A stretch of DNA of 34,930 bases from a bacterium. GTDB taxonomy: Bacteria; Patescibacteriota; Minisyncoccia; Phycocordibacterales; UBA12088. The stretch spans positions 1 through 34,930 of the forward strand of contig QKEV01000017.1 in NCBI GenBank assembly GCA_003252295.1, in the 5' to 3' direction. This document shows positions 6,301 through 26,273 of the stretch, piece by piece (within the stretch, counting starts at the first letter, position 1; every line of letters begins with the position of its first letter). The translations under genes were made by a program, and so were the position numbers. The notes beneath the pieces were generated by a model. The model was not told the DNA's origin. It did no database searches and was given only the letters and a program-made list of their open reading frames with translations.

Positions 6301-7203
6301 TGGTTCTTCCGCAGACTCCTCTACTGACTCTGGTTCGGATACCTCTTCGTCACCCTCCTTCTCCGCCGAAGCTTCCTCGACCTCCGTAGCTTTAGTGGAG
6401 GGGGTAGCGGAGGAGGATTCAATAGGTTCCTCTTCAACAATCTCTTCAACGGGAACTAACGTTTCCTCTGAAGAATCCTCATCAGTAACTTCTTCTTCCT
6501 GTTCTAGGGCTTCACTTTCATCATCGTCACCTCCTTGTGCTTCGTTAGAAACATCCTCTCCATCTACTTGTTCTTCTGGTACATCAAGCAAGAGTACTGC
6601 TTCAGCATCCTCGTCTGCATCGAGCACCTCTTGCATAACATCTTCCTCATCGTCATCAGGCGCAACGGTTACAGAGCCACCCCCTCCTCCGGAACCTCCT
6701 TTCGTATCTTTTGTTTCTGTTACTTTCTCTTCATCATCAGTAGCAAAGTGCCATGAGAACTTGAGAAACACCTTTGCTATCTCTGCATTTTCAGGTGTCT
6801 CACCATCAAAATCGCTACAGTAGAGCTGTGCGTACTCATCTTGCAGTACTGCTGAGTTCTCCCTTGAAAAACCTTCCTCACCTTCTTTTACCTGAGGTAC
6901 TCCTTCTACATTCTGTGCATTCTCCCATCCACCGAGACAACGTAATGGATAATGTTCAGCATAGTCTGCTTGAACATCACGCAGTGTAAGTACACCAACA
7001 GAGATAAGTGCTATGAAAATAAACACTGTTGCTACCGTATGTCGTGCGGCAAGTTTTAGTAAAGTATTGAGTATGGTTCGGTGCTTTGTTCCTTCATTAC
7101 CCCTATTCTGTTCTTCCACACTCACATGAGACAGTCCAAAACGCTCCAAACGCACCGGTTCGAAATTAATGTGTACAGTTGCTTTTCTATTTTGTTTTTC
7201 CAT
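1..7203 (-). CDS. Giant surface-anchored repeat protein, partial (C-terminus beyond window edge)
   Basis: Reading the minus strand from the ATG at 7203, the frame stays open to base 1 (2401 codons); the stop lies outside the window. Frame was spot-checked at about 5280, 4395, 3303, 2565 and 1818. Residues 1-55 are basic and probably cytoplasmic, and 56-74 form one membrane segment ending near DVQA. Two Glu/Asp/Ser/Thr-rich stretches follow (about 150-310 and 440-620), the first with a GGSGGGGS linker. Each ends in a short hydrophobic run with AHA (FISVAHAS near 300; SPNVAHAQ near 635). Residues about 640-830 look like beta-sandwich (macroglobulin/Big-like) domains. Later come Asp/Gly/Thr-rich beta regions, a duplicated module, and seven ~50-residue repeats (1796-2147). 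I recognise no named family. A cell-surface adhesin or stalk-like role is inferred from anchor, size and repeats. Codon use looks like that of neighbouring genes. Confidence 0.88.
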   Translation of the reverse strand, partial: MEKQNRKATVHINFEPVRLERFGLSHVSVEEQNRGNEGTKHRTILNTLLKLAARHTVATVFIFIALISVGVLTLRDVQADYAEHYPLRCLGGWENAQNVEGVPQVKEGEEGFSRENSAVLQDEYAQLYCSDFDGETPENAEIAKVFLKFSWHFATDDEEKVTETKDTKGGSGGGGGSVTVAPDDDEEDVMQEVLDADEDAEAVLLLDVPEEQVDGEDVSNEAQGGDDDESEALEQEEEVTDEDSSEETLVPVEEIVEEEPIESSSATPSTKATEVEEASAEKEGDEEVSEPESVEESAEEPSVSFLDWFISVAHASTTDSADVLKEVLNTGVLEVRYTLNGSDWYLLGTVDADSYKDASFELPLSAQEDLANVQIRVDTVPSIDNLPTVYIDSMWLEVVYETPFDEYQAEQGEDETLSIEEVPVETTVLGEYVQVHTADFRSDQEPTFIFDEQGFLEAVEYGEEQSIEEEQEVASTTDSSLQETSEVGDKASSTLTTTATTSDTVIPAEESTATSSEIDSGDTSGDVSPESEEESDAEETEQDLNVVNIDTWNGGMEVQEDATEETLEPETENSENDEEAIEGTDSTEVPEEASMEEETGESAGSFEMEQSVEESAFGAPATLFTLLKKKLHVLDVLSPNVAHAQFWDIHDVKILEAEVYREGKRTDLVPTVSEFDGAIHIRIPKSDKAFTPGKYTLRVKVRKDGEDYMTHQDFTWGVLAINTDKATYHPGEEAYLQMAALTDTGHTMCNAPLELTVQYPNGTVETLSTFADGITKETTCGSNNVTDNPDYSAQLNLPERGLYRLTLTNMANGYSIHDTVEVMEYTKFDITRTSATRVNPFEASYQMEIQVTAHTTFEGDITETLPPRFDVEDTKAKVKKRREGVVLTWEDQTFTEGQTRTYTYTYEAPEVSPQFYLLGPFTFTQEQGFFEGLFEGEPPAFFTESREWQVASDALSDVVASIPAPTYYFTTELEDLEPAHVLVLDNPTGNDYKWQFFMNGVALMINRNEGAGWEQLVMQIRSDPEYVKQQGATGNWSWNPYGLSATSTGDDVLRAWNKETQPDGSTILSRDYLTYEEGIPETLTEEWRIPALAEDLGKGPKVSYSMTQNRGLVVTKGVTEGVWRMKWSLAGISDIVSDNSDMTDEFGYPVVRKGYENNDFFIDVNDFDNLVATSGAMHTFSEIGVNNKAEIIFYPDGLSGERVIDPTTVVSSVSTGWGLSKQRLVIYDNENYFLFYTKGDGTIYYNADTDNSGTWDKGETSLITGQSTTYTDFDIYVFSVGYSLGEWDLVYTDSSNNTKVVTINTSGQTLSTLTPSAVVNTVPCDSVSVARTYVSSYGRIWVACADVSGKDMYIYSAAQTGSSNGITSWNNEYTDTGAYPVGATAMVPYFSSGADRVLVVYNRNPGGTAGDGVYANDCGTSSCVGEAEIGDLNSATNEFSSPVHISDTDFRVLITKSATAIQEYKWNGSTWSQVTANIDPDAETDEINPSLFYDDVNGDLYAFGIDSPSEASVESWRKVGDGAWGTESEVDDGDATEAGDRSLPLTMMHRTPVTISSIAINILPYAYRVSNTNYDLKVGSLDFPTYATTTQRAYMFYNDDGGGVGSSTVRSGASTSTAITGVKKGERMVVRLQLDTDGNDTSAGTSTHAYRLQWENTTDASGTWNDLSTTTDIAWSLSYDGARWGRGGPIPLATSTGSVDTCSGGATYEGGQFVAGFATTTAVAFAVDQCKDLAFAIHTGNAKLGKQYRLRVINGDDSEDLATAGGAYSVYPTLTIESATSTRYSKVTKGGAGQSTLDDGGANAVGRYTSVAIGVDGFPVISYYDVTGGDLEFIKCNDVFCSDTTQRTLDDGGTDDVGQYTSIAIGVDGFPVISYYDVTGGDLEFIKCNDVSCSSTTQHTLDSTDDVGQYNSMAIGIDGFPFASYYDLTNTNMQFIKCNDASCSDTTQHTLSDLVAIFISTAVGADGYPLVSYFDYNDGDLDLIKCYDSSCSNSVQRTLVSTGVSGYYSSIAVGVDGYPVLSYHYVTGSDLNFVKCHDDSCSSITDSTLVSTDDAGEFSQVVIGVDGFPIIKYYDNTSFDLEFVKCHDISCSSFSERTLHSLNDVGEYSSMIVGVDGDPVISYHDTTDGDLEFIKCNSLDCAPSTDANAQLSGDDSNLGYYLDNDEYSAVASDDSTYDIVHAGTNTKGTLMAASETSSNEFPITVTWNGQVSVSTTTSLEIYNYTSSAWETLDTSTSPTADTDFTLTGSKTSPADYYDGSYTATARVVVGTTTNYTELSTDLLSIDFVPFATTTQRAYMFYNDNNGGVGSSTVRSGASTSTAITGVKKGERMVVRLQLDTAGNASNALESIHTYRLQWENYTDAQGTWNDLSATTDIAWSLSYDGARWGRGGPIPLATSTG
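763..1818 (-). repeat. Seven tandem ~50-residue repeats in the giant protein (candidate seven-bladed beta-propeller)
   Basis: Seven consecutive in-frame units begin at 1818, 1662, 1506, 1356, 1212, 1062 and 912, with lengths of 52, 52, 50, 48, 50, 50 and 50 residues. The consensus has an N-terminal TL, then IGVDGFPVISYYD, GDLEFIKC and a Cys pair spaced C-x4-C. The Cys pair is present in all seven units, giving 14 cysteines. Units 1 and 2 are almost identical in DNA over about 85 bp around 1690-1770 and 1540-1620, which points to recent duplication. Seven beta-rich units of this length suit a closed seven-bladed propeller, but that fold is inference. Confidence 0.85.
2113..2457 (-). repeat. 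Long direct repeat, copy 1, of the giant-protein module
   Basis: This is the partner of bases 1-345. It encodes the same beta-rich module, from TTQRAYMFYND to PLATSTG. The protein then continues with VDTCSGGATYEGGQF and runs into the seven-repeat array. The module plus array may therefore form a ~700-residue superunit that repeats beyond the window. Confidence 0.85.
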
Positions 7204-7237
7204 TACACAAACACACGCTCCCAGAAGCGTTTGTCTA

Positions 7238-7243
7238 ATAATA
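7238..7243 (-). promoter_or_regulatory. Possible -10 element for the giant surface gene
   Basis: On the minus strand TATTAT lies about 35 nt before the ATG at 7203. A weak TGTGAT sits 17 nt upstream as a possible -35. A small hairpin (CGCT...AGCG, about 7214-7227) containing GGGAG separates the site from the start codon. The -35 is poor, so this is tentative. Confidence 0.3.
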
Positions 7244-7305
7244 TCGCACAATTTAGTTACATCACAGTTACATATAGGGAATATGTGGTGAAAACCAGAA
7301 TAACC

Positions 7306-7331
7306 AAAAACCACCCCTAAAGGTGTTTTTT
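7306..7331. terminator. AT-rich hairpin between rpsJ and the giant gene
   Basis: An imperfect stem (AAAAACCACC with GGTGTTTTTT) is followed by T-rich sequence on the plus strand. It is the first of three hairpins in the 289-bp gap. Two of them share a CCACC/GGTGG core. Confidence 0.45.
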
Positions 7332-7877: not shown

Positions 7878-9083
7878 CTATTTTACGATCTTGGTAACAA
7901 CTCCTGCACCAACAGTCTTACCACCCTCACGGATAGCAAAACGCTGCTGCTCCTCAAGAGCTACAGGTGCTACAAGCTTTACCTTGAATGTTACGGTGTC
8001 TCCTGGCATTACCATCTCTACGCCATCAGCAAGTGTTACCTCACCTGTTACATCTGTAGTACGTACGTAGAATTGTGGCTTGTAACCAGTAAAGAATGGA
8101 GTATGTCGTCCACCCTCTTCTTTCTTAAGAATGAGCACTTCTGCCTCAAATTCATCATGAGGTGTTACTGAACCTGGCTTGGTAAGTACCTGTCCACGAT
8201 GTACATCGTCTTTCTTGGTACCTCGAAGAAGGATACCTGCATTGTCTCCAGCCTGTCCCTCATTCAACTGTTTGTTGAACATCTCAACTCCAGTAACAGT
8301 GGTCTTGGTAGTATCCTTGATACCAACGATTTCTACCTCTTCACCCACCTTTACGATACCTCGCTCAATACGACCGGTAACAACAGTACCTCGTCCTTCA
8401 ATTGAGAAGATGTCCTCAATAGGCATAAGGAATGGTTTGTCGGTCTCACGAACTGGATCTACAACATACTCATCAACTGCATCAATAAGCTCTTTAATCT
8501 TGAGAGCCCACTCATCAGTCTTGTCTTTTGCATCAAGTGCTTTTAGACCTGAACCTCGGATTACAGGGGCCTTCTCACCATCAAAACCATTTGCGGTAAG
8601 TAGCTCGCGGAGCTCTTCCTCTACAAGATCAAGCATGTCTGCATCATCAACCATGTCACATTTATTCATGAACACAGCGATCTGTGGCACACCAACCTGC
8701 TTTGCAAGAAGAACGTGCTCACGAGTTTGTGGCATAGCACCATCAGTTGCTGCAACAACGAGTATTGCACCATCCATCTGTGCTGCACCAGTGATCATGT
8801 TCTTAATGTAGTCTGCATGTCCTGGAGCGTCCACGTGAGCGTAATGACGTTTTGGTGTCTCGTACTCAGAGTGGTGGAGAGCAATAGTAATTCCACGTGC
8901 CTTCTCCTCAGGCGCGTTGTCGATACCGTCAACTGCCTCTACACGAGCTTTGTAACCCTCATCAGAGAAGAGGTTAAGTGTGTGAAGAATAGCTGCGGTA
9001 GTTGTGGTCTTGCCGTGGTCAACGTGACCAATGGTCCCAATATTGACATGTGGCTTAGACCTGTCGAAAGCTTCTGCTGCCAT
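7878..9083 (-). CDS. tuf: Translation elongation factor Tu
   Basis: EF-Tu is the GTPase that delivers aminoacyl-tRNA to the ribosome. The 401 residues contain the P-loop GHVDHGKT (19-26), the switch II motif DAPGHADY (Cys of the usual DCPGH is Ala; the catalytic His is kept), NKCD, and a GSGLKAL version of the G5 motif. Domains II and III are complete through the C-terminus ([10 protein letters not shown]). Switch I reads [13 protein letters not shown], whereas E. coli has GITINTSHVEYDT, so Asn-Thr are Ala-Leu here. It is followed by rpsJ and preceded by a ~200-nt structured leader and a consensus-like promoter. fusA and rpsG, frequent partners, are absent from the window. Confidence 0.98.
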
Positions 9084-9286
9084 AATTATACATTAACTAT
9101 ATACGCTCCCTTGCGGAGGTGAAGGCGCGAGAACTTGGCCTCAACCCCGAAAGGGTGCAACTGATAACCTACATGTACACAAGTGTAAATGTAGAACCCC
9201 ATGTGCTGCGTATACATTTCGACTGGGAGACATTCAAAAAAAGAGCGTCTCCGCAGCCACATAGAAAAATACACGCAGGTGCGGTA
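9084..9286 (-). promoter_or_regulatory. Structured 5' leader of tuf
   Basis: About 200 nt separate the predicted transcription start (~9286) from the tuf ATG. In transcript order it holds a hairpin with arms CTACATTTACAC and GTGTACATGTAG (one mismatch; 9170-9195), a small CCC-TTTC-GGG hairpin (about 9147-9160), and CTCC-GCAA-GGGAG just before the start, which would sequester the GGGAG ribosome-binding sequence. This layout could allow translational control. It matches no riboswitch class I recognise. Confidence 0.45.
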
Positions 9287-9292
9287 CAGGCA

Positions 9293-9320
9293 ATACTATC
9301 GTAAGTCACTATAAAGTCAA
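9293..9320 (-). promoter_or_regulatory. tuf promoter
   Basis: On the minus strand TTGACT (9320-9315) and TAGTAT (9298-9293) are separated by 16 bp, close to the sigma-70 consensus. The predicted start is near 9286. The 9321-9478 interval upstream is A/T-rich and holds nothing else I can identify. Confidence 0.65.
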
Positions 9321-9478
9321 GCACATTATGGGCTTAATACCTAGGTTTTTTTATTGATCCTTACGTAACTCAAAAAAAACAGCTGGGTGTGTAAGTAAAA
9401 CAATTCCTTGAATTTTTGCACTTTTATTGTTCCCACAGTCTATACACAGGTTTTCCAGAGTAATTTCCACATTAACTA

Positions 9479-9505
9479 TTGATAAAACATGTAGCATGCT
9501 ATCAT
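9479..9505 (+). promoter_or_regulatory. Possible leaderless promoter for the membrane protein gene
   Basis: TTGATA (9479-9484) and TATCAT (9500-9505) are 15 bp apart. The in-frame GTG at 9512 lies at the expected transcription start, so the mRNA may begin at its start codon. The spacing is short, so this is moderate evidence. Confidence 0.4.
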
Positions 9506-9511
9506 TTCGAT

Positions 9512-9889
9512 GTGATTTCAGATGTCCAAATATTTACATATTTTGTTGTCATATCTACCATAGGATTTTACGCTGCTTATCTTTATGGAAGGAAAACCAA
9601 GCGATTTCTGTGGCGTGAATATATAGCTCTCCTCAGTGTTCCCGTTATTACCTCTTTTGGACTTACGTACTTTTACGGTATCAAAATAGTGTACCTATTT
9701 TTCACAAGTGCAATTATTGGATTTATATTGGAATATTTTCTCGGCCTTACGTACCACAAAACACTCAATAAAAGGTTATGGAAGTATGAAAAGTACAACT
9801 TCCAAGGATACACGAGTTACCTCACTCCACCTATGTGGGGTATTGCAGGAATAGTGTTTTGGTTACTGGCAAAGAGTATTGGTTTATAG
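9512..9889 (+). CDS. Small integral membrane protein, unknown function
   Basis: A ~125-residue protein with three or four hydrophobic segments: IFTYFVVISTIGFYAAYLYG near the start, YIALLSVPVITSFGLTYFYG, IVYLFFTSAIIGFILEYFLG, and GIAGIVFWLLAKSIG at the C-terminus. A polar loop between the last two has LWKYEKYNFQGYTSYLTPPM. An in-frame TTG at 9479 would add 11 residues, but it overlaps the likely promoter, so GTG 9512 is preferred. I recognise no family with certainty. It is single and convergent with the minus-strand gene ending at 9891. Confidence 0.7.
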   Translation: MISDVQIFTYFVVISTIGFYAAYLYGRKTKRFLWREYIALLSVPVITSFGLTYFYGIKIVYLFFTSAIIGFILEYFLGLTYHKTLNKRLWKYEKYNFQGYTSYLTPPMWGIAGIVFWLLAKSIGL

Positions 9890-10306: not shown

Positions 10307-11059
10307 TTACTTTTGTGCTGCTGGACAGGTGTCACGATGTTCGCAATCAACAGCTCCACAGAAACCATGTTTCAATATCTCCTCTGCAAGCTCTTTACCA
10401 TGACTCTTCACGAGTTTGCCATTACTCATCACATGCACCGTGTCCGGTGAGAGGTGGTCGAGGAGTGATGGATGATGACTTATAACGAGAAATGTTGTTC
10501 CTTTTTCTCTAAGCACATCAATTGCTTTAAAAAATATCTTGAGTGCATCCACATCAACCCCAGAATCTATCTCATCAAGTATGGCAAGTTTTGGTTTCAA
10601 TGCGACAAGCTGAATGATCTCCGATAATTTCTTCTCTCCACCAGAGAGTCCGGCAGTGAGTGGTCGGTCAAGGAGGTTTGGATTGATACCATACTCCTCC
10701 ACCTCGCTTCGAAGCGTTACGTAGTACTCAAGTACTGACTCGGTACTCTTTGATGCCTTATGAAGAAATGCCGCAAGGGTGAGCCCACCCACCTTGGGAA
10801 CATGTTGCATGGAGAGAAAGATACCTTTTTCTGCCTTCTCCTCTGTTTTGGAGTTTGTTACATCATCCCCCTCAAGCACCACCTTTCCATTTGTAATAGT
10901 GTAGTGTGGATGTCCCATCACACCATTTACCAACGTACTCTTCCCTGAACCATTGGGACCCATGAGAATTGCCGTCTCGCCTTTTTTTAGGGTAAGGGAA
11001 ACATCGGTAACTATTTCCCTATTATCAGCACTCACTGAAATATTTTTTAATTCAAACAT
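10307..11059 (-). CDS. sufC: Fe-S cluster assembly ATPase SufC
   Basis: SufC is the ABC-type ATPase that powers the SufB scaffold. Visible are the Walker A GPNGSGKST (34-42), the Q-loop region FLSMQHVPKVGG, the ABC signature LSGGEKK, Walker B LAILDEIDSGVD and the switch His in LVISHHPSLL. Length (250) is normal. The C-terminus carries an added Cys cluster, FCGAVDCEHRDTCPAAQK (Cys 234, 239, 245), which is not part of the usual SufC and might bind metal. The gene is downstream of sufB, sufS and sufU and 7 bp after the unknown gene ending at 11067. Confidence 0.95.
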   Translation of the reverse strand: MFELKNISVSADNREIVTDVSLTLKKGETAILMGPNGSGKSTLVNGVMGHPHYTITNGKVVLEGDDVTNSKTEEKAEKGIFLSMQHVPKVGGLTLAAFLHKASKSTESVLEYYVTLRSEVEEYGINPNLLDRPLTAGLSGGEKKLSEIIQLVALKPKLAILDEIDSGVDVDALKIFFKAIDVLREKGTTFLVISHHPSLLDHLSPDTVHVMSNGKLVKSHGKELAEEILKHGFCGAVDCEHRDTCPAAQK

Positions 11060-11066
11060 TTATCTC

Positions 11067-11825
11067 TTAATTATTCTTCTTATTTTCAAATGAAGGAATA
11101 GCACTTGTTGGTGAAAGTCCAAATTTTTTATCATCTAGGTAGTTCTTCATATCATCTTTATATGCCTTTATCTCCTTAGCCTCCTCATCACTGGTATGTT
11201 CAGATACTTGTAATGATACAATTTTTTTAACAATTTCTCGCACACCATCAAACTTCCTACCACACCTTCTCTCCATACCTGACACGTGTCTCGTAAACCA
11301 GTAAAACACAAGAAACATCCCCTTTCTCCCTTTTCTATATATTACATCTGTATCAATAAGATATATCTGATCTTCAGTACCACCACTTTTCTTTCCATAC
11401 ACATACTGTGTTCCACTGTTAATATCTGCAAGATACTCCTCCTCAGATTCATATTTATCAAAAAGATACTTGGCAATAGAAAGGTATAAGTGTTCTGTTT
11501 TTTCTATCACATCATTAGTAATTTCTACTTCATCTAAATTTACTCCCTCTATACGATCAACTATTTCCCCAACAATGATTTCATCTTCCCTGTTTTTATC
11601 AATAACAAAATCAACAGGTACAGTAATACCGTAATCTTCTGAAAGTTCAGCAAATAATTCTTTTGCAGTTTTAGTCAACTGTTCCGCAGAAACATCATTA
11701 CCATAAACCTCTCTTAAATCACTCAATGACTCGTAACGAACAATTTTATTTGGATCCTCTTTTACAGCAGCAAGTTCTCCTGTTTTATCCACCCTACCAA
11801 TGTAGTTGTAAACTTTTTCATTCAT
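11067..11825 (-). CDS. Unknown protein in the suf operon, possibly kinase-fold-like
   Basis: This 252-residue protein sits between sufU and sufC. Three segments recall the order of a protein-kinase-like fold: YGITVPVDFVID, a strand-hinge stretch IIVGEIVDRIEGVNLDE, and YLIDTDVIY, which could stand in the place of a DFG-type Asp strand. There is no clear glycine loop or HxD catalytic loop, so any kinase relation is weak and the protein may be catalytically dead. The C-terminal 60 residues are charged and probably helical. Neither its function nor a role in Fe-S assembly can be stated. Confidence 0.75.
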   Translation of the reverse strand: MNEKVYNYIGRVDKTGELAAVKEDPNKIVRYESLSDLREVYGNDVSAEQLTKTAKELFAELSEDYGITVPVDFVIDKNREDEIIVGEIVDRIEGVNLDEVEITNDVIEKTEHLYLSIAKYLFDKYESEEEYLADINSGTQYVYGKKSGGTEDQIYLIDTDVIYRKGRKGMFLVFYWFTRHVSGMERRCGRKFDGVREIVKKIVSLQVSEHTSDEEAKEIKAYKDDMKNYLDDKKFGLSPTSAIPSFENKKNN

Positions 11826-11872
11826 CTCTCTAAACTCAAAACTTTTACCTCGCTGTGAGGGGGCGAGTTCCC

Positions 11873-12244
11873 CTACTCTAAACTCCCTAACGCTTCCTGC
11901 AACCCATTAAAGAGTAGTAACGCACACTTCTCCCTCCCTGAAGATATATCAACCTTTAAAAGGTCGTACACATCTTCTTTCGTGAGTTTCTTAGCATGCT
12001 CCACGGTCATACCTTTTACTTTCTCTGTTAGAAGTGATGCAGCAGCTTGTGAGATAGCACACCCTATACCGGTAAATGTTGCTTTCTCAATACATCCCCC
12101 TTTTACATTCAAGTAGAGAATGTACGAATCACCACAAGAGGGGTTCTTGGTTGGCAGTTCAATCGTTGGGTTCTCTAACACCTCCTTGTTCCTCGGAGCG
12201 CTATTGTGGTCAAGTATATGTTGCTTATATAGATCTTCATTCAT
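11873..12244 (-). CDS. sufU: Fe-S cluster assembly scaffold/sulfur acceptor SufU
   Basis: SufU is the IscU-fold partner that takes sulfur from SufS. The 123 residues have the three expected cysteines in context: NPSCGDS (Cys37, with Asp39), GIGCAIS (Cys62) and GREKCALL (Cys107). The N-terminal YKQHILDHNSAPRNKE is typical. The start codon almost touches the sufS stop (12247), indicating coupling. A 47-bp gap to the next gene contains a CCTCGC...GGCGAG hairpin and CTCTAAACTC-type repeats. Confidence 0.95.
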   Translation of the reverse strand: MNEDLYKQHILDHNSAPRNKEVLENPTIELPTKNPSCGDSYILYLNVKGGCIEKATFTGIGCAISQAAASLLTEKVKGMTVEHAKKLTKEDVYDLLKVDISSGREKCALLLFNGLQEALGSLE

Positions 12245-12246
12245 AG

Positions 12247-13455
12247 TTACACGTTAAAAACTTGTTGTACTTTTTTTACACCACGGACAAGTGCATCGAC
12301 ATCATCTTTCGTATTGTACAGGTAAAAACTTGCTCGTGTACTTGCAGGTATACCGAGTGCACTATGAAGCGGCAATGCACAATGATGTCCCGCTCGAACC
12401 GCAACACCTTCCTTACCCAATATCTCTGCCACATCATGTGGATGCACTCCTTCTAATGCAAAAGAAACAATACCAACATTTTTCTCTACTGGTGCACTAT
12501 AGAGTGTTACTCCTTCAACTGCTCCAAGTTGCTCTTGTGCATACTCGGTAAGCTCTCTTGCATGTTTCTGAACAGTTTCCAGCCCTACACTGTCCAAGAA
12601 CCGAACTGCTTCCCCAAGACCAATAGCTCCTGCAATATGTTGTGTTCCTGCCTCAAACTTCTCAGGCACCTCTGTCCATTCTGCATTTCCCAGGGTCACA
12701 TCACTCACCATGCCACCACCTATGAGTGGTGGTTCCATTTTTTCCAAAAGTTCATGTTTGCCGTATAAAACACCTACACCTGTTGGTCCACACATCTTAT
12801 GTCCGGAAAAGAAAAGGAAGTCTACATCAAGTTCATGTACATTAACATCCATGTGTCCCACAGCAGCAGTAGCATCTACCACAACGAGCGCACTAACCTT
12901 GTGTGCTGCTTCTGTGATCTTCTTCACATCTAGTATTGCCCCGGTTACGTTACTTGCGAAGGTAACACCAACAAGTCGCGTCTTTGCTGTGATAGCACGC
13001 ACGAATGCATCCTCGTCAGGCACACACTCAGAGGTCACATCAACGTACTCATGCAACATGTTTTTTCTACGAGCCAGACGCTGCAATGGGAGCATGAGTG
13101 CATGGTGGTCAATGACGCCTGAAACTACTTCTCCTCCATTTTCTAAAAAATCCTCGAGCATACCCATGATCATGTTTGAAGAGAGCGTGGCTCCTCCTGT
13201 GAACACCACCTCACGTGCATCTGCGCCGATAAATCTCGCTACCTCTTCACGTGCTTTTTCATACTCCTTGGTGGCGCGCTCAGCTTCCTTGTACAAACCA
13301 CGATGCGTGTTTGCACGGTACTCTTCGTAGTATTTCTCAACAACTTGTACTACCTTGTGTGGCGTGAGTGATGTCGCAGCACTGTCGAGATACACTGTTT
13401 TACTGTTTTTAAAAATGGAGAACCCCTTTTTTAATTGTTCAATAGTAATGTTCAT
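12247..13455 (-). CDS. sufS: Cysteine desulfurase SufS
   Basis: SufS is the PLP enzyme that removes sulfur from cysteine to feed cluster assembly. Visible are the VYLDSAATSLTP start region, THRGLY, the PLP-lysine motif FSGHKMCGPTGVGVLYG and the catalytic Cys in RAGHHCALPLH. From the ATG at 13455 the length is 402 residues, normal for the class II desulfurases. The frame could start 11 codons earlier at 13488, but those residues are encoded by the AT-rich repeat flanking the S23 gene, so 13455 is preferred. It is followed without gap by sufU. Confidence 0.95.
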   Translation of the reverse strand: MNITIEQLKKGFSIFKNSKTVYLDSAATSLTPHKVVQVVEKYYEEYRANTHRGLYKEAERATKEYEKAREEVARFIGADAREVVFTGGATLSSNMIMGMLEDFLENGGEVVSGVIDHHALMLPLQRLARRKNMLHEYVDVTSECVPDEDAFVRAITAKTRLVGVTFASNVTGAILDVKKITEAAHKVSALVVVDATAAVGHMDVNVHELDVDFLFFSGHKMCGPTGVGVLYGKHELLEKMEPPLIGGGMVSDVTLGNAEWTEVPEKFEAGTQHIAGAIGLGEAVRFLDSVGLETVQKHARELTEYAQEQLGAVEGVTLYSAPVEKNVGIVSFALEGVHPHDVAEILGKEGVAVRAGHHCALPLHSALGIPASTRASFYLYNTKDDVDALVRGVKKVQQVFNV

Positions 13456-13458
13456 TAT

Positions 13459-13511
13459 TTTGTAAAATTTATAATTTGAAATTTTCAATTTTTATTGAAT
13501 GACTCAATGCT
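13459..13511. repeat. AT-rich flank, sufS side of the S23 gene
   Basis: This stretch contains runs such as AATTTATAATTTGAAATTTTC and TTTTTATTGAATG. Its reverse complement resembles the other flank (13857-13903) in layout, suggesting imperfect inverted repeats around the S23 gene. Confidence 0.5.
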
Positions 13512-13859
13512 TTAATTTTTATTTAACGTACCTGAAATTTTTGAAAATATTAAGGTCAACTCCTGTGATTCTTTCCAAAGTTCTTTGATTACATCTTTCT
13601 TTTCAGAATTTGCTTTTGCTAGTAACTGTAACCAATACTTTGTTTCTTTTATCTCCTTTTTGCAAATATGGATCTTGTTTCTAAAGTCCTTCTTTGAACT
13701 TGCACCATTTGCTTCACAATAATTTGCACCAACACTTGTCGCTGAACGAACTAACTGATTAATGATAGATTTATTAATTTCATCAATTTTTATCTCTTTT
13801 ACCAACTCAATCATATTTTCACTGAATCTCATTGTTCTTTCTTCAAGATCGTACTCCAT
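13512..13859 (-). CDS. Four-helix-bundle protein of the S23 / 23S-intervening-sequence family
   Basis: The 115-residue product is all-helical and matches the S23 family: an N-terminal LEERTMRFSENMIELVKEI, a central NQLVRSATSVGANYCEANGA, then KKDFRNKIHICKKEIKETKYWLQLLA. Members were first found in 23S rRNA intervening sequences but are widespread elsewhere, with unknown biochemical function. Here it splits the suf operon between sufB and sufS and is flanked on both sides by AT-rich, partly inverted repeats, which suggests insertion as a unit. The ATG at 13859 fits the family start. Confidence 0.88.
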   Translation of the reverse strand: MEYDLEERTMRFSENMIELVKEIKIDEINKSIINQLVRSATSVGANYCEANGASSKKDFRNKIHICKKEIKETKYWLQLLAKANSEKKDVIKELWKESQELTLIFSKISGTLNKN

Positions 13860-13903
13860 AATTTAAAATTCATTACAAATTTCGAATTAAAAATTAAAAA
13901 TTG
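13857..13903. repeat. AT-rich flank, sufB side of the S23 gene
   Basis: The sequence has ATTCATTACAAATTTCGAAT followed by repeated AAAAATT units. Compared with the reverse complement of the other flank (ATTCAATAAAAATTG, then AAATTTCAAATTATAAA), order and composition agree but identity is imperfect. Confidence 0.5.
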
Positions 13904-13904
13904 A

Positions 13905-15242
13905 TTAATGTCCCTCAAGCTCAATATCGATCAGCTTGTTAAACTCGACTGCATACTCAAGTGGAAGTGCTTTAGTGATCGGTTCTATAAAGCCACCGAG
14001 CACCATGCGTATAGCTTCATCCTCAGAGAGTCCCCTGCTCTTCAAGTAGAAGAGCTCCTCCTCACCTATCCTACCGATAGTTGCCTCATGGCTTATGGTC
14101 ACATCATCTTGCCTGTTCATCACAGAAGGAAACGCGTTAGACTCACTCTCCTCATCAAGCAAGAGTGAGTCACACACAAGGGACGCTTCAGCACCCTTTG
14201 CCTTGTCGCCAACCTTGATGAGTCCGCGATAGTTGCCGACACCACCATCCTTACTGATAGATTTTGAACGAATCGTACTCTTCGTGTTTGGTGCTAAGTG
14301 TATTGCCTTTGCACCCGTATCTTGTATCTGTCCCTTACCTGCAAACACCATTCCTAGGTTATCTGTCTTTGCTCCCTCACCAACAAGAATAGAACTTGGA
14401 TAGAGCATGGTCACCCCTGAACCCATGTTGCCACTCACCCAGTTCATCTCACCTCGTTCCTCAACAATGGCTCGCTTTGTGTTCAAGTTGTAAACATTCT
14501 TTGACCAGTTCTCAATACTTATATACTTCACCTTTGCCTCCTTGTGAACAAAGACCTCAACACAACCGGCATGCAGTGATGAAGCGTTGTATCGCGGTGC
14601 ACTACATCCTTCAATGTAGGTCACCTCAGAACCCTCATCAGCAATAATGAGCGTGTGCTCGAACTGTCCACTCGCACTCCTGTTCATGCGGAAGTACGCC
14701 TGCAAGGGTTCCTTCACCTTCACTCCCTTTGGTATGTATATAAATGTACCTCCACTCCAGACAGCCGCATGTATGAGAGAAAACTTATGATCATCGATAG
14801 GTACACACTTATCCATGAAGTATTGCTCCACAAGCTCTGGATACTTCTCGAGAGCAACATCCATGTTCTCAAAAATAACCCCATCCTTACTCAACTCCTC
14901 TTTAAGTTTGTGGTAGACAATGTTTGAATCAAACTGTGCACCCACACCACCAAGGTACTCCTGCTCTGCCTGCGGTATACCTAGCTTATTGAACGTCTGA
15001 CTTATTTCCTCGGGCAGGTCATTCCAACTTGTTGCTTCTGCAACTTCTGGATCTATGTAGTAAACGAGTGACTCCAAATCAAGTGCGCTAATGTCAGGAC
15101 CCCAGTTTGGCATGTTTGCATCCTGTAAAAGTTCAAACGCCCTGAGTCGTTTTTCCTTCATCCATCCTGGCTCACCCTTACTCTCTGAGATGTGCTCAAC
15201 AAGCTCCCGCGTCAGTCCTTTTTGGATTGTTCCTTTTGCCAT
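13905..15242 (-). CDS. sufB: Fe-S cluster scaffold SufB
   Basis: SufB is the beta-helix scaffold on which clusters are assembled with SufC. The 445 residues from ATG 15242 include GLTRELVEHISESKGEP, IHAAVWSGGTFIYIPKGVKV, the NTKRAIVEERGEMNWVSGNM strand, LVCDSLLLD (equivalent of the functional Cys) and TISHEATIGRIGEEELFY (conserved His). The C-terminus RMVLGGFIEPI is typical. The longer frame to 15320 would add 26 residues encoded by intergenic repeat, so 15242 is chosen. No sufD is present in the window, so SufB may work as a homodimer. A -10 element lies just upstream. Confidence 0.95.
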   Translation of the reverse strand: MAKGTIQKGLTRELVEHISESKGEPGWMKEKRLRAFELLQDANMPNWGPDISALDLESLVYYIDPEVAEATSWNDLPEEISQTFNKLGIPQAEQEYLGGVGAQFDSNIVYHKLKEELSKDGVIFENMDVALEKYPELVEQYFMDKCVPIDDHKFSLIHAAVWSGGTFIYIPKGVKVKEPLQAYFRMNRSASGQFEHTLIIADEGSEVTYIEGCSAPRYNASSLHAGCVEVFVHKEAKVKYISIENWSKNVYNLNTKRAIVEERGEMNWVSGNMGSGVTMLYPSSILVGEGAKTDNLGMVFAGKGQIQDTGAKAIHLAPNTKSTIRSKSISKDGGVGNYRGLIKVGDKAKGAEASLVCDSLLLDEESESNAFPSVMNRQDDVTISHEATIGRIGEEELFYLKSRGLSEDEAIRMVLGGFIEPITKALPLEYAVEFNKLIDIELEGH

Positions 15243-15251
15243 AATCTTTAC

Positions 15252-15257
15252 AGTATA
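15252..15257 (-). promoter_or_regulatory. Candidate -10 of the suf operon (near-leaderless)
   Basis: TATACT on the minus strand ends 9 nt before the sufB ATG, so the transcript would start about 3 nt before the start codon. No good -35 is visible in the (CTCCAAA)-type repeat upstream (about 15260-15299). Confidence 0.45.
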
Positions 15258-15308
15258 TAGGAGTTTAGAGTAGAGAGTTTGGAGTTTGGAGTTTGGAGAA
15301 TAAAAATA

Positions 15309-15328
15309 TAAAGCACGCAAGTGCTTTA
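15309..15328 (-). terminator. Terminator of the single-TM protein gene
   Basis: TAAAGCAC and GTGCTTTA form a perfect 8-bp stem around a GCAA loop. The minus-strand RNA continues with a U-rich run (bases 15301-15309). It separates the upstream gene from the suf operon. Confidence 0.7.
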
Positions 15329-19703: not shown

Positions 19704-21005
19704 TTACTTTATATCAAGCTCAACCTTCAAAAAGTGTGCAGCACAACTCATACATGGGTCATAGGCACGAATGAGCTTTTCAAGCTCCCAGGTAATCTTT
19801 TCCTCATCAGTGATACCCTGCGCGACGAGCTCCTCAACGAGTCGTCCGCAGTCTTCTTCTATGTTTATCTGGTTCTGCCCTGTCGGTACAATCACCTCAC
19901 CATCCTTGATGGTGCCATCCTCTGCTACATTTATCTTGTGGTAGAGTGCGCCACGTGGAGCTTCCACCACACCAATACCTGTCGCTGCTCGCATCGGCTT
20001 TTTGATAACCTCCTCTTTCACTATCTTGTTGTTCTCGAGGAGTTCTATTGCTTCATCTACTGAATGCACCACCTCTATCGCCTGTGCGAGGTTGTTATGG
20101 AAGACATTGGTTGATGGGAAGAGGTCGAGCGCACTCTTGCATGACTCCTGCGTATTTTTATGCAACCTGTCACGCGCTATGTTCATACGTGCAAGTGCTC
20201 CCACCATGTATGCATCACCCTTGTACTGGTACGCACTCGCCTGTGAGTACGGTAGCACCACATGGTCCACGAGTTCACGGTAGAGCTTCTCGTCATACTC
20301 CTCACCCTTACTCGTCACTATCTTACCCTCAATGTAACCGTAGCTGTTGAGAGGCAAGAGTGCCATGTAGTCAGTATGCCTATCAAAGTGAAAATCACAC
20401 TTCTCAAACTCGGTCACGAGACGAAGTGTCGCTTCACGAATACTCTTTAGTTTCTCTATTGCAGTCGCCACTTCCTCCTCGCTCGGGAACTTGATGAAGC
20501 CACCAATTGTTGGGAACATGGCATGAATAGAACGTCCCGCAATAATCGTCGCAAGATAGTTCCCTGCCGCTTTTATATCAAAGGCGTCATGCAAGAGTTG
20601 GTTCTGGTGCTCATCATTCTCGTCAAAGTCGAGGAACGCATCCTTTTCATACATATCAGGTAAGCAGAACAGGTAGAGATGGAGTGCATGGTCACGTATC
20701 GTGAGACCATGCATGGTGAGCGAACGAAGCATCTTCGTCTGCTCTGACGGCTGTATGTCGAGCGCCATTTCACATGCCTCAATAGCAGCGAGCACATGTG
20801 CGTTTGAACAGGTACCACAGATACGTGAGAGGTGTGAAGGAACCGCAAGAATACTCTTCCCCTTGAGTGCCTCGGTAAAGAAGCGTTTGTACTCCTCTGT
20901 CTTGAACTGCACCTTGGTTGCCTTACCATCCTCTACGGTTATGGAAAGTGATGCATCACCCTCAATCTTGGTGATATGTTCAAGATCTATGTTTATCATG
21001 TGCAT
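19704..21005 (-). CDS. [NiFe] hydrogenase large (catalytic) subunit
   Basis: This subunit carries the NiFe active site for reversible H2 oxidation. The 433 residues have both nickel-binding motifs, RICGTCSNAH (Cys63, Cys66) and DPCMSCAAH (Cys418, Cys421). The nine residues after His424 (FLKVELDIK) are the tail expected to be removed by the protease at 17259. The short tail and overall shape suggest a cytoplasmic group 3 enzyme (3b or F420-type relatives). The class is inference. The frame starts 2 nt after the small-subunit stop, so the two are translated together. An alternative ATG lies two codons downstream. Confidence 0.95.
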   Translation of the reverse strand: MHMINIDLEHITKIEGDASLSITVEDGKATKVQFKTEEYKRFFTEALKGKSILAVPSHLSRICGTCSNAHVLAAIEACEMALDIQPSEQTKMLRSLTMHGLTIRDHALHLYLFCLPDMYEKDAFLDFDENDEHQNQLLHDAFDIKAAGNYLATIIAGRSIHAMFPTIGGFIKFPSEEEVATAIEKLKSIREATLRLVTEFEKCDFHFDRHTDYMALLPLNSYGYIEGKIVTSKGEEYDEKLYRELVDHVVLPYSQASAYQYKGDAYMVGALARMNIARDRLHKNTQESCKSALDLFPSTNVFHNNLAQAIEVVHSVDEAIELLENNKIVKEEVIKKPMRAATGIGVVEAPRGALYHKINVAEDGTIKDGEVIVPTGQNQINIEEDCGRLVEELVAQGITDEEKITWELEKLIRAYDPCMSCAAHFLKVELDIK

Positions 21006-21006
21006 A

Positions 21007-21516
21007 CTACGCTTCTTTATTACCTGCTAATTCTGGTCGCAGCTCTGCTACCAAACCATTCACTGCATCTACAAACATTTTTTCATTCATGGGACATCCT
21101 GGTACTGAGGCATCTACCTCTACCACATCAGCAACTTTCTTCACTTCAGGGAGTGCACCAAACCTATCTACGAGAAACTGTATCGCCTCCTTCTGCTCAG
21201 GGGTGAACGTGTTACGCTGGCTCGCTGGCATACCTGTCACCGCACAAGCTCCTACCGCAACCACCTTCTTGCTTCGGCTGCGTATATCCTTGAGCTTCTC
21301 CTCATGCTCGGGACTTGCTATCGCTCCCTCAATAAAGGCAATATCAAACTCATCGTATATATTGTTCTTCTTGAGCACTTTTACGTGACGAAAATCAAAA
21401 ATCTTCTTCCACTCCTGCCAGTGATCATTTAAAAGCTCCGTGAAGGTAATAGTGTTGTCCTCGGAGCAAGAGAAGACAAACCATCCTATCTTTATTTTCT
21501 CGAAATCAGTTTCCAT
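21007..21516 (-). CDS. [NiFe] hydrogenase small subunit
   Basis: The small subunit holds the proximal Fe-S cluster that passes electrons from the NiFe site. The 169 residues show FVFSCSEDNTITFTELLND (Cys17), a VVAVGACAVTG strand (Cys91) and VPGCPMNEKMFVDAV (Cys141). A typical proximal cluster uses a CxxC pair plus the GxC and PGCP cysteines. Here only one cysteine is present in the first motif, with Ser, Glu and Asp next to it. Its length is that of group 3 delta subunits, without extra ferredoxin domains. No beta or gamma diaphorase-type subunit genes flank it. Confidence 0.93.
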   Translation of the reverse strand: METDFEKIKIGWFVFSCSEDNTITFTELLNDHWQEWKKIFDFRHVKVLKKNNIYDEFDIAFIEGAIASPEHEEKLKDIRSRSKKVVAVGACAVTGMPASQRNTFTPEQKEAIQFLVDRFGALPEVKKVADVVEVDASVPGCPMNEKMFVDAVNGLVAELRPELAGNKEA

Positions 21517-21635: not shown

Positions 21636-21690
21636 AGTGAGCAGATAGCTAAGAACGTTACATCAACCATAAAAAACAAGGGGGATAGCA

Positions 21691-23421
21691 ATGGATAGAG
21701 ATACCATTCGGGAAAATCTTACAGGAAGACACTATGACGTGGTCTACATCACACCAGAAACACATTGTGATGGTGACTGGCAGACTGGCTCAGGAGGACT
21801 CGGCGTTGTTGCCGACTCATACCTCTATGAACTGGAACATAATTATGGAAAACATGGGGTAAATGCACTTCAAATTGCCCTGTTCAGCTCTTGGGGTTAC
21901 CAGAGGCAGATCGTAAAAAATGTAGACGGTGGCTTCATGAATGCCACCTATAGGCAACGTATTCATCCAGCACAAGTGGTGGAAACAGGTATTCAAACCA
22001 CACTGTCGTTTGCTAAGCAAAACTGCACCATAGCAGCAAAGATGCCGCAGGAAAACAGAAGGCACACCACAAGACTTCTCCTCGACACTGATCTTTCTGT
22101 TAATGCAGAAAACTTCAGGATGATAACTCGAGTACTCTACGGAGAAAAACATGCAACAGAGTTTTTCTCAAAGGACGGGAGACCATGGCACAACATCGAC
22201 TGGCTCAGAATACTGCAGGCAGGTGTTCTGGGTCTTGGTTCGTATTACCTACTCAAGGAACTCGGCATTACCTACAAAAAACTTCACCTCAATGAATCAC
22301 ACTCTGCTCTCTTCCTTGTGCATCAACTTGGAGTATACATGGAGAAGGGTCTTTCATTCGATGAAGCTGTCGCTAAGTTGCACGAAAACAATGTGTTTAC
22401 CAACCACACCATGCTCGAATCTGGCAACAAACGGTACAGTACACATGACATCAGTAGAATCTTTAGTGCTTTTGCAGGATTCTCTGAGGAAACTCTGAGA
22501 AGATGTGGACAGAAGTCGCATCACACATTTGCAATGACTGATGCAACCTTGTTCCTTGTTGGTCCAGGAAACACAAACGCTGTTTCAAAACAGCATGGAG
22601 ATATAGCAAACGCACGATGGCCTGGACACAACATCATCTCCATAACTAATGGTGTGAGCACACGGTACCAAGATCCTGAATTCAAGAATCTTACCGATCC
22701 ACAAAAGATTCCTGATCTTAAGAAACACTTTAAAGAGCTGATTTACATCGAAATGACTGAACGACTCCGTGAAGCAGGTTGGGAAAAGGAAATCGTTACT
22801 CCTTCCCTTGATGCAGTACTCATGGTTTGGGCGCGCCGTTGCCAAGAGTACAAACGACCGGGTCTCATACTACACAACAAGGAGATAGAGCTCTTGAAGG
22901 TGCTTTTGGACTGGGATTGGGCAGCTCTCTTGTGGGGAGGGTATGTACATCCTGATGATACCAGTATGATGAATGAGTGGAATAGGTTATGGCAAAGACT
23001 GAGGCAACTCAAAAACACCATGCCTATTTTCAACTACGATATTGGTCTCATACGACCAAGATTGAAAGCAGCAAGTCAAATATGGTTGAACACACCATGG
23101 TTTGAACATGAGGCATGTGGCACGAGTGGTATGGGTGCCGCACTGAACTGTTCACTCGAGATTTCCATGCGTGACGGTTGGAAACAGGAAACTACACTGT
23201 ATGTACCCTTCGGAAGTGAAAAAACAGGTGACTGGCATGAGCAATTCAGCTTGGATGCACAATCACTTCTGCAAGCAATTACTGTACAACTTCCTCGTGT
23301 ACGCAGTAATGACCCTGCAATACTCGACCAACTCATGAGAACCAAGCTTGAAACTGAAGAACGTTTCTCCTCGGAGCGAATGGTGAACGATTACATTGAA
23401 AAACTCTATCGTTTTAAGTAG
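21691..23421 (+). CDS. Alpha-glucan phosphorylase homologue (GT35) lacking the PLP lysine
   Basis: Family members release glucose-1-phosphate from glycogen using pyridoxal phosphate. The 576 residues match the short alpha-glucan phosphorylase form: SGGLGVVADSYLYELE, LHLNESHSALFLVHQLG, FTNHT, ITNGVSTRY, WARRCQEYKRPGLIL, and SQIWLNTPWFEHEACGTSGM. The PLP signature EA[SC]Gx[GS]xMKxx[LM]N is conserved from Glu474 to Asn486 except that the lysine is Gly482. The enzyme therefore cannot form the usual Schiff base at this position. It may be a PLP-free glycosyltransferase, use another lysine, or be a binding protein. It has a strong ribosome-binding site, its own promoter and a terminator, and no other glycogen gene is nearby. 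Confidence 0.85.
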   Translation: MDRDTIRENLTGRHYDVVYITPETHCDGDWQTGSGGLGVVADSYLYELEHNYGKHGVNALQIALFSSWGYQRQIVKNVDGGFMNATYRQRIHPAQVVETGIQTTLSFAKQNCTIAAKMPQENRRHTTRLLLDTDLSVNAENFRMITRVLYGEKHATEFFSKDGRPWHNIDWLRILQAGVLGLGSYYLLKELGITYKKLHLNESHSALFLVHQLGVYMEKGLSFDEAVAKLHENNVFTNHTMLESGNKRYSTHDISRIFSAFAGFSEETLRRCGQKSHHTFAMTDATLFLVGPGNTNAVSKQHGDIANARWPGHNIISITNGVSTRYQDPEFKNLTDPQKIPDLKKHFKELIYIEMTERLREAGWEKEIVTPSLDAVLMVWARRCQEYKRPGLILHNKEIELLKVLLDWDWAALLWGGYVHPDDTSMMNEWNRLWQRLRQLKNTMPIFNYDIGLIRPRLKAASQIWLNTPWFEHEACGTSGMGAALNCSLEISMRDGWKQETTLYVPFGSEKTGDWHEQFSLDAQSLLQAITVQLPRVRSNDPAILDQLMRTKLETEERFSSERMVNDYIEKLYRFK

Positions 23422-23785: not shown

Positions 23786-25492
23786 ATGACAGATCTTTCT
23801 ATAAAAACTATCGCTATTGGAGGAGCAGCCGGAGATGGTATCCGCGAAGCTGGTATCAACTTCTCAGAGTTCCTGAATGAGCTTGGCTACAAGACATTCT
23901 CATCGTTCGACTACCCATCTCTCATACGAGGTGGGCATAACTATGCCCGCGTAAGCTACGCTCTCGGAACCGTACATGCCGACTACCGCGAACTTGATGT
24001 GCTCGTTGCGGTAAACGCAGAGTCCGTCTTCATACACCAGCATGCACTCAAGCCAACAGCTCGTGTGTTTGTGGAGGAAGCATACATGAATGAACTTGAG
24101 GGTGTTACTGCGAACCTCATTCCTATCCCGATGAAAAAGATTGCTGAGGATACAAAGGCACCACAGGTTGCCCGCACCTCAAGTGCGTTTGGAGCATACG
24201 GGTACTCACTCGGCATCCCACTCAACCGTTTGAAGGAACTTGCAGACAAGGTGTACGCAAATGTGGGAAGCGAAATAAACGTTGCACTTGTTGAAAAGGG
24301 TTACAAGCATGCAGAAGGACTTGGTGTTACACAAGATGTGTGTGCTACCCCTGAAGAGTACGGGGAGATCGGTGAGGTGATAGACGGCAACAAAGCGATT
24401 GCGAAAGGACTTCTCGCTGCAGGACTCGAAGCCTACGTGGGCTACCCAATGACTCCATCAACCTCAACACTACAGTTCCTCGCAAAGATGGCAAAGAAGC
24501 GCAACCTTAAGGTAGTACACCCTGAAGACGAGATAGCTGTTTTGAACATGGCACTCGGTATGAGCTACGCAGGAAAGCGTGTTGCAGTAGGTACTGCAAA
24601 CGGCGGACTCGCACTCATGCAGGAAACATTCTCCCTTGCTGGTGTAGCAGAAATCCCTATTGTCATCATGGTATCCATGCGTATGGGACCTGCTACCGGT
24701 GTTGCAACACACACGAGTCAGGGTGACCTGCAATTTGCACTCCATGCTGGTCATGGTGAGTTCCCTCGTTTCCTTGTTGCACCAGGTGATGTGGAGGAAT
24801 GTTTTGAATGTGCAGCAGACGCCCTGAACATTGCATGGAAGTACCAAATGCCTGCGATCATTCTTTCAGACAAACACCTCTCAGAGAGCTACAAGTCAGT
24901 GCTCATAAACGAGAAAGCAAAAGGACCTGACCTCGGTAAGCGTGCAGTTCCTGTTGATGGTCATTACCTTCGCTACAAGGTGACTGATGATGGTATTTCA
25001 CCACTCGCCTTCCCTGGCAAAAAGGGTGTTGTCGTGAAGGCTACAAGCTACGAACACAACGAAGAGGGTGAAGCGACTGAAGATGCTGCAGAGGTACAAG
25101 TCATGCAAGACAAGCGTTACCGCAAGCTACAAGGTCTCTATGAAGATTTTAACTGGTTCCCTACGGTGAAGACCTACGGTGACCCGAATAGCGATGTCGT
25201 GGTGGTCTTCTGGGGTTCTACGAAAGGTGCCATCCTTGAAGCCGCAAAGCAACTCAAGACTCCTGCCAAGTTTGTGCAGGTGCTCTGGATGGAACCGTTT
25301 GATGCAAACCGTGTTAAACGAGAGCTTGAGGGAGCACGCGTTGTTGTTGATGTTGAAGCAAACCATACCGCACAGCTTGCCGCTCTCATACGCGAAAAGA
25401 CAAGTATTGAAATATACAACAAGGTCTTGAAGTACGATGCACAGCCATTTACTCCAAGCGAATTAGCAGCCGAAATAAATAAATTCATCTAG
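23786..25492 (+). CDS. 2-oxoacid:ferredoxin oxidoreductase, fused gamma-alpha subunit
   Basis: The enzyme oxidatively decarboxylates a 2-oxoacid to acyl-CoA with reduction of ferredoxin. Residues 1-190 are the gamma domain (IAIGGAAGDGIREAGINFSE at the start, then SFDYPSLIRGGHNYARV). Residues ~195-568 are the alpha part: GNKAIAKGLLAAGLEAYVGY, PMTPSTSTLQFLA, VVHPEDEIAVLNMALGMSYA, TANGGLALMQE and MRMGPATGVATHTSQGDL. The C-terminal domain ends in VDVEANHTAQLAALIREKT. Fused gamma-alpha subunits occur in KorA-type enzymes; pyruvate or another oxoacid could be the substrate. The beta gene follows after one base. Confidence 0.93.
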   Translation: MTDLSIKTIAIGGAAGDGIREAGINFSEFLNELGYKTFSSFDYPSLIRGGHNYARVSYALGTVHADYRELDVLVAVNAESVFIHQHALKPTARVFVEEAYMNELEGVTANLIPIPMKKIAEDTKAPQVARTSSAFGAYGYSLGIPLNRLKELADKVYANVGSEINVALVEKGYKHAEGLGVTQDVCATPEEYGEIGEVIDGNKAIAKGLLAAGLEAYVGYPMTPSTSTLQFLAKMAKKRNLKVVHPEDEIAVLNMALGMSYAGKRVAVGTANGGLALMQETFSLAGVAEIPIVIMVSMRMGPATGVATHTSQGDLQFALHAGHGEFPRFLVAPGDVEECFECAADALNIAWKYQMPAIILSDKHLSESYKSVLINEKAKGPDLGKRAVPVDGHYLRYKVTDDGISPLAFPGKKGVVVKATSYEHNEEGEATEDAAEVQVMQDKRYRKLQGLYEDFNWFPTVKTYGDPNSDVVVVFWGSTKGAILEAAKQLKTPAKFVQVLWMEPFDANRVKRELEGARVVVDVEANHTAQLAALIREKTSIEIYNKVLKYDAQPFTPSELAAEINKFI

Positions 25493-25493
25493 T

Positions 25494-26273
25494 ATGTCAC
25501 TCGATCTAAGTACAGAAGCAGAGGTTACCTGGTGCCCGGGATGTCCAAACAGCCAGATACTTGTCGCCTTTCGTCAGGCAGTGGAAGGTCTCGTGAATGA
25601 CGGCAAGGTGGAGCTACACAACATCGTTGCAGGAAGTGGTGTCGGCTGTCATGGAAAGATAAGCGACTACCTTGATGTGAGCACGTTCAACTCACTCCAT
25701 GGTCGTATCGTTCCAACTTTGACCGGTATCAAACTTGCAAACCCAAAGCTCAACGTGGTTGGTTTCTCAGGTGACGGAGACTCGTTCTCAGAAGGTTTCA
25801 ACCACATTACCCATGCTGCACGAAGCAACAGTAACATTACCGTTTTCCTACACAATAACCAAGTGTTTGCGCTCACCACAGGACAAGCTACCACAACGAG
25901 TCCGAAGGGCTTCAAGGGAGGTACCATGCCAGACGGTTCTATCAATGAACCGGTAAACCCTGTTCTCATCATGCTCGTCATGGGCGCTACCTTTGTAGCC
26001 CGTACTCCAGCATCTGACATCGCCAAGACCAAGGAAATCATGCAGGCAGCAATGATGCACAAGGGCTTTGCATTTGTTGAGATTATTCAGCCATGTATCA
26101 CTTTCTTTGACACTCGTGAACATTTCAAAAATGCCGTGTACTGGCTTGATGCCAAACACCGTAAGGGTAATATTGATTATGCCTTTAAGGTTGCTCGCAT
26201 GAACACAGACGAAAAGGTACCGTGCGGTATCATCTACCAAACCGAAAAACCAACTTTTGAGGAGCTAGTGTAA
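25494..26273 (+). CDS. 2-oxoacid:ferredoxin oxidoreductase, beta (TPP) subunit
   Basis: This subunit binds thiamine diphosphate and a [4Fe-4S] cluster. The 259 residues show TWCPGCPNSQ (Cys14, Cys17), VAGSGVGCHGK (third Cys), the TPP signature GFSGDGDSFSEG with HNNQVFALTTGQATTTSPKG following, and EIIQPCITFFD (fourth Cys). All expected cluster ligands are present. The ATG at 25494 is next to the stop codon of the alpha gene, indicating an operon. No separate delta ferredoxin subunit is in the operon; a free ferredoxin such as that at 33444 could serve as acceptor. Confidence 0.94.
   Translation: MSLDLSTEAEVTWCPGCPNSQILVAFRQAVEGLVNDGKVELHNIVAGSGVGCHGKISDYLDVSTFNSLHGRIVPTLTGIKLANPKLNVVGFSGDGDSFSEGFNHITHAARSNSNITVFLHNNQVFALTTGQATTTSPKGFKGGTMPDGSINEPVNPVLIMLVMGATFVARTPASDIAKTKEIMQAAMMHKGFAFVEIIQPCITFFDTREHFKNAVYWLDAKHRKGNIDYAFKVARMNTDEKVPCGIIYQTEKPTFEELV

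Follow-up and report, generated by a model that had tools for sequence, protein, structure and literature searches.

A clade of short GT35 alpha-glucan phosphorylase homologues in which the PLP-binding lysine has probably moved to a neighbouring helix

To our knowledge, the lysine that holds PLP in glycogen phosphorylase has been treated as universal, and it is part of the motif by which the family is recognized. The locus studied here, which lies in a patescibacterial window of 34,930 nucleotides (the window being the whole stretch of DNA that was analysed), raises the question of what becomes of a phosphorylase that lacks it. The initial annotation had read the gene as a phosphorylase homologue with Gly for this lysine, a departure that would be new for the family, and had suggested a PLP-independent or non-catalytic protein. 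Most of its observations hold: the Gly codon is where it was placed; the NESHS, RRCQEYKR and WLNTP motifs are present (the last at residues 465-469); and the gene is no pseudogene, being full length with an ATG start, an intact reading frame and its own ribosome-binding site (Table 1). The terminator that it proposed is a less clear case, as the downstream hairpin is strong but has no long T-run, and the terminator scan passed over it. In the open-access literature we found no direct report of a Lys-less GT35 protein, of the clade described below or of a relocated Schiff-base lysine.

Table 1. Coordinates of the phosphorylase-like gene, its sequence motifs and its neighbours within the window; residues are numbered as in the window protein.
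Feature	Position	Strand	Remarks
GT35-like alpha-glucan phosphorylase homologue	21691..23421	+	576 aa; single catalytic GT-B module, short TIGR02094 type
PLP-lysine motif EACGTSGMGAALN, residues 474-486	23110..23148	+	gapless alignment to solved phosphorylases
Codon 482, GGT (Gly); PLP Lys in phosphorylases	23134..23136	+	equivalent of rabbit Lys680, the PLP Lys
Codon 459, AAA (Lys459), candidate relocated Schiff-base lysine	23065..23067	+	model helix 451-461
RRCQEYKR, residues 382-389	22834..22857	+	phosphate/PLP-phosphate site; rabbit Lys568, Arg569, Lys574 equivalents
NESHS, residues 201-205	22291..22305	+	rabbit Asp339-His341 region
Shine-Dalgarno AAGGGGG	21678..21684	+	graded good
Terminator-like hairpin, 13-bp stem, GCAA loop	23432..23461		-23 kcal/mol; no long T-run
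2-oxoacid:ferredoxin oxidoreductase alpha and beta	23786..26273	+	also beside the G167 orthologue (L050)
NiFe hydrogenase large and small subunits	19704..21516	-	also beside the G167 orthologue (L050)

That the glycine reflects a sequencing or assembly error, or the decay of the gene in this one genome, is scarcely conceivable. The orthologue is admittedly patchy within the genus, being present in three of its six genomes with the window's own counted; however, to turn AAA or AAG into GGT takes three base substitutions, more than a single-base error can supply, the frame is undisturbed, and homologues from independent genomes also lack the lysine, with Gly in L002 and Ser in L020.

As regards family membership, the window protein matches TIGR02094 (alpha-glucan family phosphorylase) at 198.7 bits against a cut-off of 191.7, as do all 30 sampled members of the clade defined below, and it falls short of the gathering score of Pfam PF00343 (22.3 versus 27 bits), a model that 29 of these 30 match at E<=0.01. 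The GlgA model TIGR02095 (curated cut-off 328 bits) is absent from its profile matches. An AF2 model (pLDDT 91, pTM 0.92) adopts the GT-B fold of the GT35 type; all 50 PDB matches listed by Foldseek are GT35 proteins, the best being the Segatella copri glycogen phosphorylase 9l6i, which is also the best PDB match by sequence, and its mutant 20yr. The GT35 residues for the substrate phosphate and sugar, namely the equivalents of rabbit Arg569, Lys574, Glu672, His377 and Asn484, are present in the window protein and in the whole clade. The one departure from the GT35 signature EA[SC]GT..MK considered here is the lysine itself, which is Gly482 in the window protein and S/T/G/A across the clade.

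Homologues were collected by searching genomes of the order, family, class and phylum, with one further scan of named genomes, and 154 were usable; querying genome contigs with the single protein gave no relatives, whereas an alignment query did, and a search of the window's own genome with the protein returned only itself. The nearest relatives all lack Lys482, have Ser, Thr, Ala or Gly there, and form one clade that ranges over Patescibacteria, Bacteroidota, Verrucomicrobiota, Campylobacterota and Gastranaerophilales. Altogether 67 homologues, drawn from no fewer than five phyla, are without the lysine, a pattern that, going by the alignment, is far beyond chance. As to whether the Gly would be conserved, the residue itself varies, with Ser and Thr dominating the column and Gly in just three proteins (the window protein, L002 and L005), but the absence of Lys holds across the clade and is not private to this genome. 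The patescibacterial motif is the more varied (GMG, GMS, GMA, QS, WMS, WIS), with GMT or GMS in the other four lineages. Two loci labelled as Sphingomonadales (L109, L121) have gene order and close sequences in common with Chitinophagaceae loci and are probably mislabelled bins. Two patescibacterial Lys482 phosphorylases (L008, L012) carry an N-terminal extension of about 200 aa, phosphatase-like of the HAD type by motif alone. Further afield, L016 and L017 (G139, G180) are very remote GT35-like proteins (EACGTSDFVAKI) with A459 and V482, and their genes adjoin a Glu/Leu dehydrogenase gene and a cation-efflux gene.

What distinguishes the clade is a second position. When 30 proteins without Lys482 are set against 30 with it, two columns separate the groups perfectly, 482 (K versus S/T/G/A) and 459 (K versus V/T/I), and these are the sole alignment columns with non-overlapping residue sets. 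Over the full alignment of 154, Lys459 is found in all 67 clade proteins that lack Lys482 and in none of the 85 that have it; no homologue carries both lysines, and neither is present in the two very remote proteins mentioned above. In the AF2 model residue 459 lies in helix 451-461, which comes after Tyr449 (the Tyr648 equivalent), and 482 in helix 478-485; the two helices follow one another in the C-terminal half, which is Rossmann-like. The initial annotation had allowed that a nearby Lys might bind PLP; Lys459, which it missed, is a specific candidate for this role, the binding itself being putative. The invariance of Lys459 and the variability of residue 482 are both points beyond that annotation. 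We also considered K344 as a second lysine gained by the clade and rejected it, since the same column is Lys in solved canonical phosphorylases and is hence not specific. Some change in the pocket itself is seen at position 454, close to rabbit Ala653, where the clade has S in place of A. In the rabbit enzyme Ala653 lies four residues ahead of residue 657, the equivalent of 459, and contacts PLP; together with the place of the helix after Tyr449, this suggests that Lys459 could reach into the PLP pocket.

The direction of the change was inferred from a tree with canonical phosphorylases as the outgroup (E. coli MalP among them; each has K482 and I/F/V/Y at 459), built after columns 459 and 482 had been removed. 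The Lys459 clade is nested inside the K482 proteins (SH-aLRT 99), with the short Clostridium/Halanaerobium type as its sister group; thus its ancestor had the PLP lysine, and on this tree Lys482 is ancestral. We had at first taken the clade for a GT35 form that predates the use of PLP, a reading that this rooting led us to reject. The window's genus forms a long branch, with Tyr or His as its Trp491 equivalent. Inside the Lys459 clade there is a trio (L029, L030 and L032, from G264, G369 and G307) that has K482 together with S, S and Q, respectively, at 459. Placing the trio outside the Lys459 proteins costs 88.6 log-likelihood units (p-AU 6.7e-5 in an AU test on 30 rows, again with both key columns removed). 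These proteins retain the clade residues at many clade-specific columns (e.g., 28, 83, 344, 430, 450 and 505) and have a two-residue deletion directly after K482. Hence, the trio appears to have regained Lys482 and lost Lys459, which means that the lysine would have moved twice, both positions changing each time; the swap would thus rest on just two events, one gain and one reversal.

The surroundings of these two positions bear on whether PLP is still bound. In the clade, all 67 proteins have R383, Y387, K388, T478, E474, H239 and N320 at the site for the PLP phosphate and the substrate, and 66 have R382; the Trp491 equivalent is kept in 62 and the Tyr648 equivalent in 65. Expressed in rabbit numbering, Lys568 (Arg382 here), Arg569, Tyr573, Lys574, Glu672, Thr676, His377 and Asn484 have essentially invariant equivalents. 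R382 and the Trp491 equivalent belong to the PLP site; a search of the open-access literature for published lists of PLP contacts gave no direct report. As judged from the alignment, such conservation is unexpected for a protein without catalysis and less expected for one without PLP. A non-catalytic glucan-binding or regulatory pseudoenzyme, which might be suspected because the lost residue is considered essential in every phosphorylase characterised so far, is accordingly very unlikely: all the remaining catalytic residues persist in members from several phyla, Lys459 is strictly invariant, and the protein is often the sole GT35 of its genome.

Hence, we propose that these proteins are probably PLP-dependent alpha-glucan phosphorylases in which the Schiff-base lysine left position 482, in the first turns of the helix behind the EACGTSG loop, for position 459, and in one lineage returned. 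Briefly, PLP would occupy its usual site, its 5'-phosphate held by Arg382, Arg383, Lys388 and Thr478 beside the substrate phosphate, and would be anchored from the other side by Lys459 of the adjacent preceding helix, while a small residue, Gly in the window protein and Ser or Thr in others, would fill the old place of the lysine; the enzyme would then release glucose 1-phosphate from storage glucan. The reach of Lys459 to PLP, the binding of the cofactor and the phosphorolytic activity are what we infer from sequence and model. Such a migration would account jointly for the mutual exclusivity of the two lysines, for the reversal, and for the conservation of the site and the genomic setting of the gene. 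Points that weigh against it are the small number of events behind the swap, the shift at position 454 and, in the window's genus, the long branch with its altered Trp491 equivalent. Of the earlier suggestion of PLP-independence or a non-catalytic role, the premise that the lysine is truly lost stands, but the suggestion is not the best reading in light of the conserved site, Lys459, the K482 ancestor and the subclade that swapped back.

That the clade is PLP-independent in one form or another, with Lys459 assuming the acid/base role of the cofactor's phosphate group or with a nucleotide-sugar synthase re-evolved from a phosphorylase, is a doubtful proposition, though one to be taken seriously. 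The first form, a PLP-free phosphorylase in which the ammonium group of K459, possibly together with a bound anion, stands in for the cofactor phosphate as the acid/base partner of the substrate phosphate, would make sense of an invariant new Lys where the PLP Lys is absent and of an intact substrate-phosphate site; however, the residues of the PLP-phosphate site are still conserved and the reversal implies that the two lysines are functionally equivalent, leaving this form quite unlikely. In the second form, PLP would have been abandoned for a retaining glucosyltransferase acting on ADP- or UDP-glucose, K459 and the Arg/Lys pair holding the diphosphate as in GT5/GT3. GT35 is indeed a relative of GT3 and GT5, and one published proposal derives it from a nucleotide-sugar ancestor (PMC11046441). 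The glycogen synthases of GT5/GT3 have in common with the clade the GT-B fold, the Arg/Lys phosphate pair, a Glu after the acceptor loop and the want of a PLP Lys; genes like those of NDP-sugar pyrophosphorylases lie near some members (L054, L118), and the GlgA model gives weak matches to 23 of 30 members. Yet K482 relatives match that model about equally (16 of 30), so that it does not tell the groups apart, and the similarity of the clade to these synthases is weak and not above that of K482 phosphorylases. Moreover, descent from K482 ancestors means that the clade is no relic, the basic R382 and the Trp491 equivalent are retained, the reversal trio would need to have regained the use of PLP, and several members adjoin a bona fide GlgA gene (e.g., L104). 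We therefore regard this second form as unlikely.

The gene neighborhoods of the Lys459 proteins point to glucan metabolism. In Campylobacterota the gene is accompanied by glgA, glgB and genes for phosphoglucomutase (pgm), glucose-6-phosphate isomerase (pgi), a ROK-type glucokinase-like protein and nucleotidylyltransferase-like proteins. Of the patescibacterial loci, four have a GH57 gene directly adjacent and one an NTP_transferase gene, and several loci of Bacteroidota have an alpha-amylase-family gene two genes from it. Of 30 genomes with a Lys459 protein, 26 yielded no GT35 of the canonical or K482 type. In the window's own genome a GH57 gene adjoins a GT4/GT5-like gene on another contig, and the presence of SHMT and of a class V aminotransferase, the latter in the window, indicates that PLP is used in this cell. 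The NiFe hydrogenase and 2-oxoacid:ferredoxin oxidoreductase genes that flank the phosphorylase-like gene, an arrangement common to the window and the same-genus genome G167, fit a fermentative, sugar-degrading module.

Set against known systems, the TIGR02094 phosphorylases, such as the Thermococcales maltodextrin phosphorylase (NF041129) and the Segatella copri enzyme, are closest, agreeing with the clade in family model, fold and active-site residues, but they keep Lys482 with V/T/I at 459, whereas the clade has K459 with S/T/G/A at 482. The canonical GT35 enzymes (TIGR02093; E. coli MalP, rabbit glycogen phosphorylase) have the same catalytic core and phosphate-site residues; they differ in being longer, in their low identity to the window protein (about 14-16% in fold alignments), and in retaining the PLP Lys with a hydrophobic or aromatic residue at 459. 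Precedents for an essential lysine relocated to a neighbouring element with function kept are the WNK kinases and a KDPG aldolase that was evolved to carry its Schiff-base lysine elsewhere; their folds and chemistry are unrelated and the likeness is one of analogy alone. If the migration is real, the clade would amount to a phosphorylase subfamily that is large and has gone unrecognised, open to testing in culturable genera (Pedobacter, Flavobacterium, Akkermansia), and the annotation of what is apparently the only GT35 protein in many Bacteroidota, Verrucomicrobiota and Campylobacterota genomes would be corrected. A phylum-spanning shift with a reversal would further show that the covalent attachment of a cofactor can move with function kept. 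If instead PLP is gone, phosphorylase chemistry, or its conversion to that of a synthase, would need no cofactor.

A few other features of these loci deserve mention. A natural pair for comparison is offered by L160 (Campylobacteraceae), where a Lys482 GT35 gene (942-3098, 719 aa) and a Lys459 GT35 gene (7956-9590, 545 aa) occur in one same-strand run that also includes phosphoglucomutase and phosphoglucose isomerase genes. At L118:4270-6774 a sugar-1-phosphate nucleotidylyltransferase is fused to a phosphohexomutase in a protein of 835 aa; homologues of this fusion are found in L100, L135, L142 and L160, and they recur beside the Lys459 gene in Campylobacterota. Elsewhere in the window, both on the minus strand, positions 10310-15320 carry SUF-type Fe-S assembly genes (a SufC-like ATPase, SufB/D and a class V aminotransferase), and positions 1-7314 a very large reading frame of at least 2438 aa that is cut by the window edge.
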